From: Nitrospirota bacterium
Lineage (GTDB): Bacteria > Nitrospirota > Thermodesulfovibrionia > SZUA-242
DNA: 58,862 nt
Assembly (NCBI GenBank): GCA_027021335.1
Contig: JALUUO010000030.1
Span: 1-58,862, forward strand
Reading direction: 5' to 3'
The position numbers and the translations under genes were made by a program. Under the pieces are notes generated by a model. It was not told the origin of the DNA. It was given only the letters and a program-made list of their open reading frames with translations, and did no database searches. Of this stretch, positions 24,483-31,238 are shown piece after piece; within the stretch, counting starts at the first letter, position 1, and every line of letters starts with the position of its first letter.

Positions 24483-25175
24483 ATGAAAAATTTCTTTTAT
24501 CTTTTCTATAAATCCTTTTTGGATGTAGCTCCGCTGGTTATAGTTATTCTATTTTTTCAGCTTGCTGTCATCCAAGAGCCGTTCATCAACCCATATAAAC
24601 TGGCGCTGGGTATGTTTTTGTTGATCTTTGGGCTTTTTCTGTTTATGCTGGGCTTGGATACAGGGCTTTTCCCTCTGGGCGAATCAATGGCATTTTCTTT
24701 TGCCGCAAAAGGAAATATCTGGTTGTTGTTAATCTTCGCTGCCGCTATTGGTTACTCCACCACCATAGCCGAACCGGTGCTGATTGCAATTGCTCAAAAA
24801 GCCGAGACAATGACGGAAAGCAGAATAACAGCGTTCGCTCTTCGAAACACCGTAGCCATAGGTGTGGCGCTCGGCATTGTTATAGGTGTTATGCGGATAC
24901 TTTTAAACCATCCCATACATTACTATTTTATCGGCGGTTATATTGCTGTGATGACCATCACCATATTTGCTCCAAGGGAGATCATAGGGATTGCCTATGA
25001 CGCCGGCGGAATTACAACTTCTACGGTAACGGTGCCGTTGGTGACAGCATTGGGAATCGGTCTTGCGAGTTCAATCGGCGGAAGAAACCCGTTAATTGAT
25101 GGGTTCGGTCTCATAGCTTTTGCTTCACTTCTTCCCATTATCACGGTTATGGGATATGGCCTCATAATTATGTGA
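24483..25175 (+). CDS. DUF1538 membrane protein, first of two
   Basis: A 230-residue integral membrane protein with about six to seven helices. It carries the DUF1538 hallmarks IGYSTTIAEPVLIAIAQKAE (about residues 94-113) and the glycine- and threonine-rich YDAGGITTSTVTVPLVTALG (about 176-195), then GRNPLIDGFGLIAFAS. DUF1538 proteins are predicted transporters; substrate and mechanism are not established as far as I know. In many genomes two DUF1538 units are fused in one protein, whereas here they are separate adjacent genes. The PII-like gene downstream suggests nucleotide or metabolite control of transport. The start ATG has no strong ribosome-binding site. Confidence 0.88.
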   Translation: MKNFFYLFYKSFLDVAPLVIVILFFQLAVIQEPFINPYKLALGMFLLIFGLFLFMLGLDTGLFPLGESMAFSFAAKGNIWLLLIFAAAIGYSTTIAEPVLIAIAQKAETMTESRITAFALRNTVAIGVALGIVIGVMRILLNHPIHYYFIGGYIAVMTITIFAPREIIGIAYDAGGITTSTVTVPLVTALGIGLASSIGGRNPLIDGFGLIAFASLLPIITVMGYGLIIM

Positions 25176-25194
25176 AAACCGATTACTTTCATTT

Positions 25195-25929
25195 GTGTTG
25201 AATTTTTTACATGATAGGGTTCTAGATTTAGTCTCGGTTATCCGTGATGTGATTCCGGTAGCGGTTGTCGTCATTTTTTTTCAGCTTGGGATTCTGCGCC
25301 GGCCAATTCCGAACACTAAGGCAATTGTTGTAGGTTTTCTAGCGGTTATAGCCGGACTCTACTTCTTTCTGATTGGCCTGGAGACGGCGGTATTTCCTAT
25401 AGGTGAAAGCATGGCTCATAGGTTTTCATTACCCGGTAACAAGATATGGGCTTTGCTGTTTGCATTTTTAATGGGTTATACGACAACCATTGCAGAGCCG
25501 GCCCTCCTTGCTGTCGCCAGAAAAGCTGAAGAACTCACCGCCGGTGGACTTAAAAATTTTGCGCTTCGAAATGCTGTAGCCACCGGAGTGGCAATAGGTT
25601 TGACAATGGGTGTGTGGCGTATATTTTCCGGCAGACCTCTATGGCTGTATATTCTTGCAGGTTACGTTATAACATTGATTCTTACCTATTTCGCTCCCAG
25701 GCAGATAATCCCCTTGGCTTATGATTCGGGTGGGGTGACTACCTCCACCATCATGGTTCCTTTAGTTACAGCGTTGGGATTGGGGTTGGCCACGAACATA
25801 CCGGGCAGAAACCCGTTGATCGACGGATTTGGCTTGATCGCATTTGCATCTGTTTTTCCTATAATATCGGTACTAAGCTACTCGATCATAATCGAGATTA
25901 AAAAGAAAAACTTAAGGCTCAGGAGGTGA
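25195..25929 (+). CDS. DUF1538 membrane protein, second of two
   Basis: A 244-residue paralogue of the preceding protein with the same signature blocks: MGYTTTIAEPALLAVARKAE (about residues 100-119), YDSGGVTTSTIMVPLVTALG (about 181-200) and GRNPLIDGFGLIAFAS. The start is GTG at 25195. The two proteins probably assemble as a heterodimeric or pseudo-symmetric transporter. The repeated TTIAEP and GGxTTST elements look like candidate re-entrant or substrate-site loops, which is inference. A GGAGGTG beside its stop codon serves as the ribosome-binding site of the PII-like gene 7 bp downstream. Confidence 0.88.
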   Translation: MLNFLHDRVLDLVSVIRDVIPVAVVVIFFQLGILRRPIPNTKAIVVGFLAVIAGLYFFLIGLETAVFPIGESMAHRFSLPGNKIWALLFAFLMGYTTTIAEPALLAVARKAEELTAGGLKNFALRNAVATGVAIGLTMGVWRIFSGRPLWLYILAGYVITLILTYFAPRQIIPLAYDSGGVTTSTIMVPLVTALGLGLATNIPGRNPLIDGFGLIAFASVFPIISVLSYSIIIEIKKKNLRLRR

Positions 25930-25936
25930 AACAATC

Positions 25937-26281
25937 ATGCGCTTCAACCTGCTTATTACTATTTGTCCGACAGATAAACATAAGGAGATCGTGGACGCCG
26001 CCAAGGCTGCCGGTGCCACAGGAGCGACGCTTCTTTCTGCAAGGGGTACAGGTATTCATGAGGCAAGCACATTTTTTGGGCTAACCCTGGATAAACCGCA
26101 GGAAGCCGTGATAATGCTGGTGGAACACCACCAGTGTCCAAAGATAATGCAGGCTATCTATGATGCCGGAGACATGATAAAACCTGGTAAAGGCATATGC
26201 TTTTCGCTTCCGGTGGAGTCGGTTATGGGACTCGAAAGCCAGCTTTCAGTCCTGAAAAAAGAGGCGGAGGAGTATATCTGA
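25937..26281 (+). CDS. PII-like signalling protein
   Basis: A 114-residue protein of the PII superfamily (ferredoxin-like trimer). It starts MRFNLLITICPTDKHKEIVDAAKAAGATGAT, with the glycine-rich loop LSARGTGIHEAS in the place of the nucleotide site and the second half KIMQAIYDAGDMIKPGKGICFSLP. It lacks the GlnB/GlnK T-loop uridylylation tyrosine context, so it belongs to the broader PII-like group that regulates membrane transporters. Its place 7 bp behind the DUF1538 pair suggests that it binds or gates that pair. Ligand unknown; adenine nucleotides are typical. Confidence 0.8.
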   Translation: MRFNLLITICPTDKHKEIVDAAKAAGATGATLLSARGTGIHEASTFFGLTLDKPQEAVIMLVEHHQCPKIMQAIYDAGDMIKPGKGICFSLPVESVMGLESQLSVLKKEAEEYI

Positions 26282-26327
26282 TGCTTCCCGGTCTGCTACA
26301 ATCAAAAACTTAGAAGGAGAAAGATCA

Positions 26328-26723
26328 ATGGTTATCAAGGTTAAGGACGTGATGGCTACAGACGTGGTGACCATCGACGGGGGTGCGCCGCTTCTGGATG
26401 CGTTGAAACTGATGATGGAGAGAGGTGTTAAATCACTGGTTATACCGCCCAGAAGCGATAGCGATGCGTTTGGCATTCTCACGTTTACCGATATCGCCAA
26501 AAAAGTGCTGCCGGGTGATGAAAGACTCGAAATGTTAAATGTCTATGACATTATGACAAAACCATGTCTCTGTGTTTTTGGTGAATGGAATATTCGGTAT
26601 GCTGCTAAGATGCTGACGGACATGAGTATATCAAGGGCCATTGTGAGTGACGGTAAAACACTGCAAGGCATTGTATCGCTTTTCGACATAGTCAAGTCGT
26701 TATCAGAAAAAATATCCAGATGA
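26328..26723 (+). CDS. Two-CBS-domain protein
   Basis: A 131-residue protein made of a CBS pair (Bateman module). The first starts VKDVMATDVVTIDGGAPLLDALKLM and the second begins YDIMTKPCLCVFGEWNIRYAAKML, each closing with the usual GILTFTDI and GIVSLFDIVK strands. CBS pairs sense AMP, ATP or related nucleotides. It lies 46 bp after the PII-like gene, behind an AGGAGAAAG ribosome-binding site, so the transport cluster holds two separate nucleotide-sensor proteins. There is no enzymatic domain attached. Confidence 0.9.
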   Translation: MVIKVKDVMATDVVTIDGGAPLLDALKLMMERGVKSLVIPPRSDSDAFGILTFTDIAKKVLPGDERLEMLNVYDIMTKPCLCVFGEWNIRYAAKMLTDMSISRAIVSDGKTLQGIVSLFDIVKSLSEKISR

Positions 26724-26820
26724 ATTCAGCCGTTTATACAGGGTGCAGGGTACAACTTTACAGTGGCAGAAAGAATACTTCAGTTTGTGAACGGGGTGCC
26801 TGATTGATGAAACCACCTAG

Positions 26821-27783
26821 ATGCTGACCTACTGCCTAGCCATAGTTGTGGGTTTTTCCCTGCTGGTCTGGGGCGCTGATCGCTTTGTGCTCGGTGCTGC
26901 GGCAACCGCCCGTAACTTTGGCGTTCCACCCCTTATCATAGGTCTTACCATTGTCGGTTTTGGTACGTCCGCACCCGAGGTTCTTGTATCCGGAGTTGCC
27001 GCCTGGAACGGCAATCCAGGACTCTCCATAGGTAATGCCTTGGGTTCAAATATCACTAACATCGCTCTTGTGCTGGGCGTAACAGCCATAATCACGCCAC
27101 TGAATGTGCACTCCGATACGTTACGACGTGAATTTCCGATTCTACTGGCCATCATGCTTTTCGCCCTGCTTATCATGTTGGACGGTGAGCTTAGCCGTTT
27201 AGACGGAGTTCTTCTGCTTGGTGGACTTTGCGCTATGATTTACTGGCTTGTGAGGCTTGGACTTCAAAAAGCCCGTTCTGATCCTATGGAGTTGGAGTTC
27301 GACAAGGAAATTCCAGGCGCCATGTCCACAAAAGTTGGTATTGCCTGGCTTGTTGCAGGTCTAGTCTTGTTATTGTTGAGTTCACAGGTGCTGGTATGGG
27401 GGGCTGTTAACATTGCGCATATTCTGGGTGTCAGCGATCTTGTTATAGGCCTGACAGTTGTTGCCATAGGCACAAGTCTGCCGGAGTTGGCCGCTTCGGT
27501 GCTGAGTGCTGTTAAGAAAGAGCATGAGATTGCGATCGGCAATGTGCTCGGGTCAAACATGTACAACTTGCTTGCAGTAATGGGTCTGCCTGGCGTTATA
27601 GGTGCTGGAGTTTTTGACAGGGCCGTACTGGTGCGGGATTTTCCTTTCATGATCGGACTGACTCTGGCGCTTTTTGTCACGGCTTATGGATTTAATGGGG
27701 AAGGACGTATTAACCGCATAGAAGGCGTCGCTCTTCTTCTGGCTTTTGTGGCTTACCAAGTTTTTCTCTATTACACGGCCTAA
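26821..27783 (+). CDS. Calcium/cation antiporter (CaCA family, YrbG type)
   Basis: A 320-residue inner-membrane exchanger with about ten helices. It has the two inverted alpha-repeat signatures: GFGTSAPEVLVSG with ALGSNITNIALVLG in the first half, and AIGTSLPELAASV with VLGSNMYNLLAVMG in the second. These acidic residues coordinate the cation. K+-independent Na+/Ca2+ or H+/Ca2+ exchange is expected. The start ATG at 26821 lacks a clear ribosome-binding site. It lies 97 bp after the CBS gene and could belong to the same unit, giving a cluster of ion-handling proteins. Confidence 0.92.
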   Translation: MLTYCLAIVVGFSLLVWGADRFVLGAAATARNFGVPPLIIGLTIVGFGTSAPEVLVSGVAAWNGNPGLSIGNALGSNITNIALVLGVTAIITPLNVHSDTLRREFPILLAIMLFALLIMLDGELSRLDGVLLLGGLCAMIYWLVRLGLQKARSDPMELEFDKEIPGAMSTKVGIAWLVAGLVLLLLSSQVLVWGAVNIAHILGVSDLVIGLTVVAIGTSLPELAASVLSAVKKEHEIAIGNVLGSNMYNLLAVMGLPGVIGAGVFDRAVLVRDFPFMIGLTLALFVTAYGFNGEGRINRIEGVALLLAFVAYQVFLYYTA

Positions 27784-27841: not shown

Positions 27842-27894
27842 TTGACAAATAACAACATGCCTATTAATATCTTCAGGCTATAACCCAATTGGGT
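27842..27894 (+). promoter_or_regulatory. Promoter and palindromic operator of the gcvH-lpd unit
   Basis: TTGACA (27842-27847), a 17-bp spacer and TAATAT (27865-27870) form a near-consensus sigma70 promoter 53 bp ahead of gcvH. Thirteen bases downstream of the -10 is the perfect 12-bp palindrome ACCCAATTGGGT (27883-27894), at about +6 to +17. That is a position suited to a repressor. Confidence 0.65.
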
Positions 27895-27922
27895 ATAAAT
27901 ACATGTCTTTAAGGAGGGCTGT

Positions 27923-28309
27923 ATGAATCCGGAAGATCTGAAGTACCATAAAGAGCATACCTGGGCGCGCATTTCAGGCAACAAGGCAACAGTGGGAATC
28001 TCTGACTATGCACAAGAATCCCTTGGCGAGATTGTGTATATCGAAATCCCTGAAACAGGCACTTCCGTGCAGGCCGGCGAAGACCTTGGCGAGATAGAAT
28101 CCACAAAGGCGACCTCGTCAATAGTCAGCCCGGTAAGCGGCACGGTTGTTGAGGTTAACGAGGAGCTTAACGACGCCCCTGAAATTGTAAATGAAGATCC
28201 GTATTCCAAGGGGTGGGTGGCTGTTATAGAACTTAGCGACAGCAGTTCCGGCAGCGATCTTATGAGCTCCGTGGAGTACGAAAAATTTATTGAAAAAGAA
28301 TCTAAGTGA
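27923..28309 (+). CDS. gcvH: Lipoyl carrier protein, GcvH family
   Basis: A 128-residue lipoyl-domain protein. The lipoylated lysine is in EIESTKATSSIVSP (about residues 56-69), and the start NPEDLKYHKEHTWAR and the C-terminal helix MSSVEYEKFIEKE are standard for GcvH. GcvH normally carries aminomethyl groups in the glycine cleavage system, but no gcvT or gcvP is nearby. It is followed 14 bp later by dihydrolipoyl dehydrogenase and then by DsrE/TusA sulfur-relay genes. A role as a lipoate-bound sulfur carrier, as known for LbpA proteins in sHdr-type sulfur oxidation, is therefore worth testing. A strong AAGGAGG precedes the ATG. Confidence 0.9.
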   Translation: MNPEDLKYHKEHTWARISGNKATVGISDYAQESLGEIVYIEIPETGTSVQAGEDLGEIESTKATSSIVSPVSGTVVEVNEELNDAPEIVNEDPYSKGWVAVIELSDSSSGSDLMSSVEYEKFIEKESK

Positions 28310-28323
28310 AGGGTTAGCTGGTT

Positions 28324-29709
28324 ATGAAAATTGTTGTTATAGGAGCAGGGCCGGGCGGTTATGTGGCTGCTATACGGGCAGCCCAGATGGGTGCGGATGT
28401 TACAGTTATAGAAGCCGATGAGGTAGGCGGAACCTGCCTAAACCGAGGTTGTATTCCGACCAAGGCCCTGCTTGCCTCCACCGAAGCGCTTAGTAAAATA
28501 AAAAAGGCAGCTGATTACGGGCTGGAGATCTCAGGAGATGTTACGGCCCGGCTGGATAAGATTATGGCCCGAAAGGATAAGGTGGTGGCTACGCAGGTTA
28601 AAGGCATTCGCGGTCTTTTCAAGAGCTGGGGGGTCACACTTATCGAGGGACGTGGACGTTTGATGCCCGGCAAAAAAATTGAGGTTACTTTAAAAAACGG
28701 GGATACTCAGGAGCTGGGGGCAGACGCGATTATCGTAGCAACCGGGTCCAGGCCGGCTCAGATACCCGTTTTCCCATTTGATGGAGAAAAAATAATTTCG
28801 AGCGATGAAGCCCTGAGCCTTGAGAGTCTGCCTGAAAGTCTTTTGATAGTAGGAGCTGGTGTTATAGGTTGTGAGTTTGCATTCATCTATAAGGAGCTAG
28901 GGGTGGATGTGACAATGGTAGAGATGATGCCCAGAGCTGTTTTTACCGAGGATCCGGAGATCTCCGAGATTCTTGAAAGGGAGTTGAAGAAAAAGAAGAT
29001 CAAGCTGATTAAGAACATAAAGACTGAAAAAGTCGATATAACGGATGGTGGTGTCAAGGCATTCCTCTCGGATGGAAAAACGATTGAGGGGCAAAAGATG
29101 CTTGTATCAATCGGCAGGGCGGTTAACAGCGAGGACCTGGGCCTGGCAGATGTTGGAGTGGAACTCGGCGGGCGTGGTGAAATACCGGTGGATGAGAGGA
29201 TGAAAACAAATGTGGACGGCATATATGCCATTGGAGATGTAACAGGCGGTATCATGCTTGCCCACGTGGCATCAAAACAGGGTCTTGTGGCTGTTGACAA
29301 TATCATGGGACATGATGCGAAGATGAGCTATGACGTGGTGCCTGCGGCCATATTTACCCATCCGGAAATTGGTTCCGTGGGCCTTCGTGAACACCAGTGC
29401 CAGGAGAAGGAAATCGATGTGAAGATAGGCCGGTTCCAGTTCAGGGCGTTGGGCAAAGCACATGCCATGGGTGAGATTGCGGGCATGATTAAGGTTATAG
29501 CAGAGGCTGAAACAGATAAGGTTCTTGGGGTTCATATGATAGGGCCTCACGCTTCCGACCTTGTGCACGAAGCAGCTTTGGCTATGGAAATTGGAGCGAC
29601 ATCAAAACAGGTAGCTGAGATGATTCATGCTCATCCTACACTTGCCGAAGGCGTCATGGAGGCATGTGAAGACGTTCATGGGATGGCTGTACATATGCCT
29701 AAAAAGTAG
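28324..29709 (+). CDS. lpdA: Dihydrolipoyl dehydrogenase
   Basis: A 461-residue FAD disulfide oxidoreductase that reoxidises dihydrolipoamide with NAD+. It begins with the FAD-binding GAGPGGYVAAIRAAQMG, then the redox-active disulfide GGTCLNRGCIPTK (about residues 37-49). The NAD site is VGAGVIGCEFAFIYKELG (about 178-195), the second FAD motif YAIGDV, and the C-terminal His-Glu pair HAHPTLAE (about 439-446) completes the active site. It is directly downstream of the GcvH-like carrier, so that carrier is its likely substrate. No E1 or E2 components of a 2-oxoacid dehydrogenase are present in the window. Confidence 0.96.
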   Translation: MKIVVIGAGPGGYVAAIRAAQMGADVTVIEADEVGGTCLNRGCIPTKALLASTEALSKIKKAADYGLEISGDVTARLDKIMARKDKVVATQVKGIRGLFKSWGVTLIEGRGRLMPGKKIEVTLKNGDTQELGADAIIVATGSRPAQIPVFPFDGEKIISSDEALSLESLPESLLIVGAGVIGCEFAFIYKELGVDVTMVEMMPRAVFTEDPEISEILERELKKKKIKLIKNIKTEKVDITDGGVKAFLSDGKTIEGQKMLVSIGRAVNSEDLGLADVGVELGGRGEIPVDERMKTNVDGIYAIGDVTGGIMLAHVASKQGLVAVDNIMGHDAKMSYDVVPAAIFTHPEIGSVGLREHQCQEKEIDVKIGRFQFRALGKAHAMGEIAGMIKVIAEAETDKVLGVHMIGPHASDLVHEAALAMEIGATSKQVAEMIHAHPTLAEGVMEACEDVHGMAVHMPKK

Positions 29710-29760
29710 ATACGTGTTGTAAGTTACCTGCTGGTCGTTCCACGGCAGTGCTTCGTTTTC

Positions 29761-29788
29761 TTGACAAAGTCTAGATAATTCTTATAAA
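29761..29788 (+). promoter_or_regulatory. Candidate promoter of the DsrH/E-TusA genes
   Basis: TTGACA (29761-29766), a 16-bp spacer and TATAAA (29783-29788) lie about 50 bp ahead of the first sulfur-relay gene. This gives the downstream genes their own transcription start in addition to read-through from lpdA. Confidence 0.55.
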
Positions 29789-29836
29789 ATTTGCCATTAT
29801 TTGTCGTTGGTGAAATAAAAATATTTCGGAGGTGGG

Positions 29837-30139
29837 ATGATGAAACTAGGTGTAATCCTCACTGAATCGAAGAGGACCGAGGATACCTTTGAGCGGCTTC
29901 AGGCGGATAAACTGAGCGTGGTTCTCGCAGGTAACGGAATCTATCATGCAGTGATCAAAGAAAACGGTAATACTTCTAAGGTGCTTGACAAGGCAGCGGA
30001 TTTTTATGTTCTTACAGAGGACTTGGAGTCACGCGGATTCACATCGGCTGATCTGGTTGACGCTAAAATTAAGCAGGTTAATTACGACGGTCTTGTTGAT
30101 CTGATCATGGACGAGCATGACAAATTTGTTTGGTTATAG
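29837..30139 (+). CDS. DsrH/TusB-like protein lacking cysteine
   Basis: A 100-residue protein with the small alpha/beta fold pattern of DsrH/TusB. The pattern comprises ADKLSVVLAGNGIYHAVI, a central DFYVLTEDLESRGF and a C-terminal YDGLVDLIMDEHDKFVWL, the usual DsrH ending. It has no cysteine at all, so it cannot carry a persulfide itself and would act structurally or in docking. It starts after a GGAGGTGGG site; either of the first two ATGs may be used. It is first of four small genes with two DsrE-like proteins and TusA. Confidence 0.72.
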   Translation: MMKLGVILTESKRTEDTFERLQADKLSVVLAGNGIYHAVIKENGNTSKVLDKAADFYVLTEDLESRGFTSADLVDAKIKQVNYDGLVDLIMDEHDKFVWL

Positions 30140-30151
30140 GAGGGGGTAATT

Positions 30152-30511
30152 ATGGCAACACTTACAATAGGTGTTTTTTCATCATTAGTAGGTTCCATGA
30201 GTCTTGACTTTGCCGTTAAACTTGCAGAGGCGGCTAGAAAAAAGGGTCATGATGTTAATGTTTGGGTTTCTGGTAATGCAACTATGCTTTCCAAGAAAGG
30301 CCAGAGATCTTTCAAGGATTATTCAAGCCTGAATAAAACTGTTGAGAGCTTGCTTGCAGAAGGTGCTGAGTTTTGTGCTTGTGAGGCATGTGCTGAAGCG
30401 CGCGGTTACAAAAAGGATGATACTATGGAAAACTGGCAGAGGCATAGCATGGATTGGTATCTTGCCAAGTGCGCAAAAAGTGACAAGATTTTGCATATAG
30501 GAGGTGAGTAG
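30152..30511 (+). CDS. DsrE/TusD-like sulfur-relay protein
   Basis: A 119-residue DsrE-family protein. The start MATLTIGVFSSLVGSMSLDFAVKLAEAARKKG is the usual beta-alpha opening. The catalytic cysteine region is EFCACEACAEARGY (about residues 73-86), matching the CxxCxxARG pattern of DsrE/TusD. Three cysteines lie close together there. Such proteins accept a persulfide from a rhodanese or TusA and pass it on. The downstream gene starts 1 bp after its stop, after an internal GGAGGTGAGTAGG site. The expected complex partners are its two neighbours. Confidence 0.78.
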   Translation: MATLTIGVFSSLVGSMSLDFAVKLAEAARKKGHDVNVWVSGNATMLSKKGQRSFKDYSSLNKTVESLLAEGAEFCACEACAEARGYKKDDTMENWQRHSMDWYLAKCAKSDKILHIGGE

Positions 30512-30512
30512 G

Positions 30513-30932
30513 ATGGCGGAAGCAAAAGAATTAAAACAGTTGTTTGTGGTACAGAGGCCTCCTTACAAGAGCGAAAATCCGAAACTGGCCCTTACTCATG
30601 CATTGGCCAGCCAGACGGCGGAAATCTACCTTGACGACGGGGAAACAGTACTGCCTACTATAGCTTTTGTGGGTGATGGGGTTTTAAATGCCTTAAACAA
30701 TCAGAAATCAATGGATCATTATGGAATTTCGAGTAACGAAAATCATGTTCAGATGACTTTGCTGATAGACTTGAGGGTTTTGGTATGCAAAGAAGATCTG
30801 GAAGCCCGTGGTATAGATGCCGGACGCCTGGCCGACGGTAGCGCTTTGGGTGCTGATATGTCGATTGAGGTGGTGCCTTTCAGCGAAATACAGAAAGAGA
30901 TGGAGGCTGCTGACCAGCTTTTGTTCTTCTAG
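30513..30932 (+). CDS. DsrE/DsrF-like sulfur-relay protein
   Basis: A 139-residue protein with the DsrE/F fold. The core is KLALTHALASQTAEIYLDDG, then IAFVGDGVLNALNN, and the single cysteine in LRVLVCKEDLEARGI, which is in the position of the active-site cysteine of the family. I start it at the ATG at 30513 because a strong GGAGGTGAG precedes it. A longer frame from 30504 adds three residues inside the previous gene. With the cysteine-free DsrH-like and the DsrE-like neighbours it could build a hexamer like DsrEFH/TusBCD. Confidence 0.75.
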   Translation: MAEAKELKQLFVVQRPPYKSENPKLALTHALASQTAEIYLDDGETVLPTIAFVGDGVLNALNNQKSMDHYGISSNENHVQMTLLIDLRVLVCKEDLEARGIDAGRLADGSALGADMSIEVVPFSEIQKEMEAADQLLFF

Positions 30933-30986
30933 TATTGTATTGATGGTAAGATATAGAGCAAAATCAAAAGATTAAGGAGGAAGGAA

Positions 30987-31238
30987 ATGGCGGATCTTAA
31001 ATCTATAGAACCAACCGAGGTACTCGATGTTATGGGAAGAGTCTGTCCCTACCCGCTGCTTCTTACAAAAAAGAAGCTCGAAAAAATGGCACCAGGTAAT
31101 TTGTTAAAGGTGCTATGTGATGCTCCTGCTTCAGCAGAGGACTCCATACCTAAGTATTCCGAGAAGCAAGGCTATGCCTTCGAAGCTGTAAAAGATGATG
31201 CGAAAGGCACTTGGGAGCTTTATATTCAGAAGAGCTGA
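30987..31238 (+). CDS. tusA: TusA family sulfur carrier
   Basis: An 83-residue TusA-like protein with the CPxP active site, read as GRVCPYPLLLTKKKLEKM (about residues 15-32). The second half, GNLLKVLCDAPASAEDSIPKY, is also family-typical. TusA binds persulfide sulfur on the first cysteine and donates it to DsrE-type proteins. It is the last gene of the unit: AAGGAGGAAGG precedes the ATG, and a strong terminator follows 24 bp after the stop. The role could be thiolation chemistry, Mo-cofactor supply or sulfur energy metabolism; context with the lipoyl carrier favours the last, by inference. Confidence 0.88.
   Translation: MADLKSIEPTEVLDVMGRVCPYPLLLTKKKLEKMAPGNLLKVLCDAPASAEDSIPKYSEKQGYAFEAVKDDAKGTWELYIQKS

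Follow-up and report, generated by a model that had tools for sequence, protein, structure and literature searches.

Two transcription units at a gcvH-lpd-dsrHEF-tusA locus of Thermodesulfovibrionia: a probable orphan lipoyl carrier beside a sulfur-transfer cassette

Here we report an analysis of six consecutive genes, gcvH-lpd-dsrH-dsrE-dsrF-tusA, all on the + strand and spanning positions 27,923-31,238 of contig JALUUO010000030.1 from a genome of the class Thermodesulfovibrionia (Nitrospirota). The window, by which we mean the whole stretch of DNA analysed (58,862 nucleotides), is one entire contig of a 2.70 Mb draft genome (G000) that is 96% complete. The six genes are two neighbouring transcription units, gcvH-lpd (unit A) and dsrHEF-tusA (unit B), and not one system. 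Unit B is a known sulfur-passing set, and it is unit A that is the unusual part of the locus: Thermodesulfovibrionia have lost the P- and T-proteins of the glycine cleavage system (GCS) but have retained the H-protein (GcvH), the L-protein (dihydrolipoyl dehydrogenase, Lpd) and the lipoylation pathway. We consider it probable that the locus is best read as two units of which gcvH-lpd encodes an orphan lipoyl carrier. Our own results concern gene content, gene order, promoter-like sites, conservation and losses, and the sulfur transfer steps referred to below come from the cable-bacterial work of others.

Each unit is preceded by its own sigma70-type promoter-like site on the + strand. The site of gcvH-lpd, TTGACA-17-TAATAT at 27842..27870, was found by a sequence scan, and TTGACA-17-TARTAT also lies 5′ of gcvH in both sister genera; the original prediction had begun the block at 27842, which is the first base of this site, and gcvH itself begins at 27923. 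The site of dsrHEF-tusA, TTGACA-16-TATAAA at 29761..29788, lies 5′ of dsrH, and the same element is found at the identical place in both sister genera (G001 and G002), where its chance expectation in the corresponding stretches is 0.01 and 0.04 when a single mismatch is tolerated, and both matches are exact. Most class members have a strong promoter-like site 5′ of dsrH, the best score being 11/12 in 48 of 78 loci versus 1 of 78 after base shuffling. In a general scan promoter-like sites were overall no commoner than in shuffled sequence, and the promoter argument therefore rests on position and conservation. A single six-gene operon was considered and rejected, because separate promoter-like sites are conserved in three genera.

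The retention of unit A was followed in a class sample of 81 Thermodesulfovibrionia genomes and a phylum-wide sample of 246 genomes. Full-length GcvH is encoded by 76 of the 81 class genomes, and lpd lies 3′ of gcvH on the same strand, at a distance of 6-233 bp, in 73 of 77 class gcvH loci. LipA scores over its cut-off in 76 genomes and an LplA/LipM-type gene is present in 77; GDC-P and GCV_T, the models for the P- and T-proteins, exceed their cut-offs in a single class genome (G001), and the E2 component of a 2-oxoacid dehydrogenase is found in 22. The whole lipoyl module (GcvH, Lpd, LipA and Lpl) is present in 70 class genomes, 49 of which have neither a GCS nor an E2. In the phylum-wide sample 134 of the 246 genomes have a GDC-P match that passes the cut-off, and of the matches listed a single one (G250) falls in this class; the loss is class-specific, given that GDC-P is widespread in the other classes and scarce here. 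Our literature search returned nothing relevant on an orphan GcvH-Lpd system in Thermodesulfovibrionia.

The window genome is among the 49 that keep the lipoyl carrier without a recognised client. It encodes one GcvH-type protein, one Lpd and one LipA over cut-off, together with a single lipoyl ligase/octanoyltransferase-type gene on a different contig from gcvH, and profile searches of the whole genome found no GDC-P, no GCV_T and no oxoacid-dehydrogenase E2. The absence of gcvT, gcvP and an oxoacid dehydrogenase (the last judged by E2 profile), which the original prediction had noted, thus holds beyond the window for the entire 96%-complete genome. Relay of lipoate to an E2 was rejected for this genome, in which the search for E2, covering PF00198 proteins, found none. 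For the class at large, the presence of LipM/LplA-type enzymes and LipA, along with an E2 in 22 of 81 genomes, could suggest that GcvH is purely a lipoyl-relay hub, which is octanoylated and hands lipoate to 2-oxoacid dehydrogenases; however, the 49 client-less genomes retain the whole module, and such a hub would not need an adjacent Lpd, making this explanation very improbable.

In other families the neighbours of gcvH-lpd include eno, an ftsB-like gene and mutS, among others, and are not sulfur genes. In six genomes (cluster c14: L067, L071, L073, L078, L080 and L085) a conserved protein of ∼460 residues without a Pfam family is encoded 3′ of gcvH-lpd. A separate fusion of a response-regulator receiver domain with a degenerate GcvH-like domain lies beside nuoE/nuoF-like genes (L115:2229-2990, − strand); most class genomes have one similar match, and a GCV_H search found none in the window genome.

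The products of unit A are readily recognised. GcvH (27923..28309, +), identified by family models, alignment and tree, is a 128-residue protein that matches PF01597 (E=6e-43) and scores 153.7 bits against the NCBIfam gcvH cut-off of 115.9, with its lipoyl lysine K62 in the ESTK motif of EIESTKATS. Lpd (28324..29709, +), identified by family models, scores 556 bits with TIGR01350 (cut-off 409) and has the redox motif GGTCLNRGC. In a tree of 79 GcvH proteins (128 columns, with no LbpA sequence included) the proteins of the lpd-linked ESTK type, from this class and from others, stand apart, with support of 98/96, from the gcv-operon ESVK proteins together with those of E. coli, pea and 2ka7. The residue before the lipoyl lysine distinguishes lpd-linked (ESTK) from gcv-operon (ESVK) GcvH in the Nitrospirota sequences compared, with the exception of one protein with ESAR (G028). 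On family model and tree the window protein is best classed as GcvH-type, and it is not demonstrably an LbpA, the lipoate-binding protein of the sHdr pathway. The original prediction had weighed the case of a glycine-cleavage GcvH with gcvT and gcvP elsewhere in the same genome, and of this the first half is borne out by model and tree and the second is not. That the window protein serves as H-protein to a gcv operon located on another part of the genome was rejected, neither GDC-P nor GCV_T being present.

The GcvH-type assignment speaks for the idea of a cryptic glycine cleavage or synthesis, with glycine and C1 units still interconverted by non-homologous P- and T-proteins or by lipoyl-GcvH alone. 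So does the finding that several genomes from other classes of the phylum carry the same lpd-linked GcvH as their sole full-length GcvH and a full GcvP elsewhere. We nevertheless regard this idea as quite unlikely for Thermodesulfovibrionia, as 80 of the 81 genomes have no GDC-P/GCV_T over cut-off, and the two class members with a GCS (G001 and G250) have a second, ESVK-type GcvH inside their gcv operon while keeping the lpd-linked one.

Unit B fits, on sequence and predicted fold, the published DsrEFH type II/TusA sulfur-transfer cassette. DsrH (29837..30139, +; family models, profile and fold match) matches PF04077 and is barely over the TIGR03011 cut-off, and its profile reaches Allochromatium vinosum DsrH (2e-8) and E. 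coli TusB. DsrE (30152..30511, +; Pfam, alignment and fold match) matches PF02635; a single-sequence search of DsrE against solved structures gave nothing informative, and profile and fold searches were required. DsrF (30504..30932, +), which overlaps dsrE by 8 bases, matches PF02635 and weakly TusC, and was identified by Pfam and alignment, the fold comparison having covered DsrE and DsrH. TusA (30987..31238, +; Pfam and alignment) matches PF01206. AlphaFold models of DsrE and DsrH (predicted local distance difference test, pLDDT, 90 and 93, respectively) match chains of A. vinosum DsrEFH (2HY5) and of TusBCD, the DsrE model resembling DsrE (2hy5_A) and TusD (2d1p_A) with a template modelling (TM) score of 0.81 and the DsrH model resembling DsrH (2hy5_C) with a TM score of 0.78. 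The original prediction had described these proteins as cysteine-free, which is correct for DsrH, with no cysteine in the window protein and none conserved across its 19-member set, and incorrect for DsrE (C75, C77, C80 and C107, of which C77 and C80 are invariant in 19/19), DsrF (C95, invariant in 18/18) and TusA (C44 and the CPYP cysteine C20, the latter invariant in 21/21). Family models otherwise confirmed all six genes on the + strand where they had been placed, and the suggestion that the DsrE/H-like and TusA proteins act as sulfur carriers is borne out in so far as they form a DsrEFH/TusA sulfur-transfer cassette.

A survey of unit B with the DsrF profile found 80 loci, in which dsrF is accompanied by DsrE in 80, DsrH in 79 and TusA in 72; further relatives beyond these loci show the same arrangement. 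Nearby Dsr genes include dsrK (36 loci), dsrM (34), dsrC (33) and dsrA (12), the dsrC, dsrK, dsrM and dsrP queries scoring over their own family models. DsrA passes its cut-off in 74 of the 81 class genomes, among them the window genome, where dsrA is adjoined by a dsrB-like gene, a gene for a 71-residue DsrD-like protein and a cobB-like (dsrN-type) gene. The DsrD-like gene (which has no Pfam or NCBIfam match) and the cobB-like gene suggest that dsrAB may be of the reductive type. With cable-bacterial type II proteins, in vitro transfer of sulfur runs from TusA to a DsrE cysteine and ends at DsrC (Plum-Jensen et al. 2026, PMC13293266), and DsrEFH type II subtype 1 comes mostly from Nitrospirota (PMC13293266). 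By homology and synteny, TusA of the window would take up sulfane sulfur and pass it to the active cysteine of DsrE, from which it would go to DsrC for DsrAB/DsrMKJOP. To the published prediction of reversible Dsr metabolism, the dsrHEF-tusA unit adds one genome.

The two units are joined in one family. Two further genera of this family have the same six genes in the same order, which makes three in total, and because of this recurrence the block is not a chance arrangement; the original prediction had allowed for an adjacency unique to this strain, and had suggested a survey for conservation of the whole block, which we find in these three genera and in none of the remaining loci among the 80 with dsrF. 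As gcvH-lpd lies near dsrF in only 2 of these 80 loci, both from the window's family, adjacency of the units as a class-wide trait was rejected. Each unit also occurs alone. The lipoyl module is present without a detected DsrF in 13 class genomes (7 of family f10, 2 of f18 and 4 of f4), with the caveat that DsrF absence was judged by single-sequence search, which a highly divergent DsrF could escape, and that the four f4 genomes are drafts in which an assembly gap is possible. Conversely, three genomes of family f13 have kept DsrF and DsrA and lost Lpd, Lpl and LipA (over cut-off); of their GcvH proteins, that of G028 has ESAR instead of ESTK and so lacks the lysine, and that of G036 retains it. 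Such joint loss of Lpd, LipA and Lpl, with the lysine gone from one GcvH, is as expected of a working module decaying as one. From the 13 genomes on one side and f13 on the other, it follows that neither unit needs the other in general, and the junction of the two is a feature of one family that neither would require in order to work.

GcvH would be lipoylated by the LipM/LplA-type enzyme together with LipA, and the adjacent Lpd would cycle lipoyl-GcvH between its dithiol and disulfide forms with NAD(H), as an orphan carrier kept by Thermodesulfovibrionia after the loss of GcvP and GcvT. We tentatively suggest that lipoyl-GcvH may now carry electrons for a redox or persulfide partner, through a dithiol/disulfide couple linked to NAD(H). 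More specifically, and more doubtfully, lipoyl-GcvH/Lpd of Thermodesulfovibrionia could serve dissimilatory sulfur metabolism in Dsr organisms as a carrier of redox equivalents or of sulfur. It would then be the equivalent of LbpA in a system independent of Hdr, trading NADH-level electrons with sulfane sulfur, and in this family it would have moved next to a DsrEFH type II operon.

Several observations weigh against two merely neighbouring units with an orphan carrier. Three genera preserve the order of the six genes though their flanking genes differ, sharing nothing except distant matches to ABC transporters, which hints at a common role there. In one sister genome (G001, L086:5628-13129) the block is immediately preceded by iscR-iscS-iscU-tusA and followed by a rhodanese-like gene. 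Also, the 96% completeness of the window genome makes a missed client gene in this one genome conceivable. The G001 locus, a sulfur-trafficking island, also has a GNAT-like gene upstream and a rubrerythrin-like frame downstream.

Both the retained adjacency and the sulfur genes on either side of the block in G001 would favour an Hdr-independent lipoate sulfur relay, close to that of the original prediction, in which TusA and DsrE give sulfur to lipoyl-GcvH and Lpd re-oxidises the carrier with production of NADH. There is a precedent in Metallosphaera, where lpd and a lipoamide-binding protein are encoded near dsrE3A-tusA; for such archaeal lpd/DsrE3A/TusA clusters with an Hdr-like complex, electron flow to NAD via the lipoamide-binding protein has been proposed (PMC4175335, PMC6067878). 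Against the relay stand the separate promoter-like sites, the different linkage of the two units across the class, where unit B lies with dsrC/dsrMKJOP/dsrAB and unit A with housekeeping genes, and their occurrence apart from one another, and the TusA-DsrEFH type II-DsrC transfer achieved in vitro proceeded without a lipoyl protein (PMC13293266; lipoate, GcvH and Lpd go unmentioned in its main text). A relay joining both units is therefore unsupported as a general mechanism, and we judge it unlikely. Retention of the six genes as a group amid changing flanks points to some advantage, possibly in jointly supplying or removing sulfane sulfur, and a functional link between the units that is specific to the family is possible.

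The wider interest of the orphan carrier concerns the uses of protein-bound lipoate: five lipoylated enzyme complexes have been characterised (PMC6067878), and these, with LbpA, cover the known uses. Most members of a class of Dsr bacteria retain the lipoylation pathway, the lipoyl lysine and a dedicated Lpd, and 49 of 81 genomes have no such client. With a client-less module in these genomes and one family that has lost all its parts, the question of what else lipoate is for becomes directly testable.

Directly 5′ of the block (24483-27783), the window carries two UmpA/UmpB-like antiporter subunit genes together with PII-like, CBS-domain and Ca/cation exchanger genes. The genes called on the 58.9 kb contig include none recognised as Hdr-like, no genome-wide sHdr search having been made. 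A plasmid search for LbpA references yielded, as the most divergent among the matches listed, an Acidithiobacillus plasmid copy and a Pseudomonas orphan copy, neither of them sHdr; the former (A. ferrooxidans plasmid p1, L123:9632-15677) is a divergent GcvH-like gene amid globin, oxidoreductase, thioredoxin, hemerythrin and heterodisulfide-reductase-like genes.

Set against known systems, unit B resembles DsrEFH type II (PMC13293266) in its three syntenic DsrE-fold genes with tusA, its conserved DsrE cysteine and the dsrA and dsrB-like genes of the genome with DsrD-like and cobB-like (dsrN-type) genes alongside. The published active cysteine of DsrE is Cys67 of the cable-bacterial protein, for which the invariant C77 and C80 are the candidates in the window. 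Unlike the published description, the order here is dsrH-dsrE-dsrF-tusA with gcvH-lpd immediately upstream, and no yeeE/yedE gene was recognised beside the cassette, the whole genome not having been searched for this transporter. Unit A resembles the H- and L-proteins of glycine cleavage, both being over their equivalog cut-offs (gcvH and lipoamide_DH) with the lipoyl lysine present, but differs from that system in its separate lpd-linked ESTK clade and in the genome-wide absence of P- and T-proteins. Like LbpA of the sHdr pathway (PMC6067878), for which electron flow to Lpd has been proposed, GcvH is a single lipoyl-domain protein of GcvH-like type, here near dsrE and tusA; unlike in that pathway, the genome encodes just one GcvH-like protein, whose closest solved relatives are H-proteins of the GCS. 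Maturation genes are of the canonical LipA and LipM/LplA type, whereas LbpA has linked sLpl(AB)/LipS1/LipS2 (LipS1/S2 were not searched for in the window genome). Finally, the block shares the conjunction of lpd, DsrE-like and TusA genes with the DsrE3A-TusA-lpd cluster of Metallosphaera (PMC4175335), but that cluster lies with an Hdr-like complex and its DsrE3A has Cys-X7-Cys, whereas the window block has three DsrE-fold subunits and a DsrE with C77-X2-C80.

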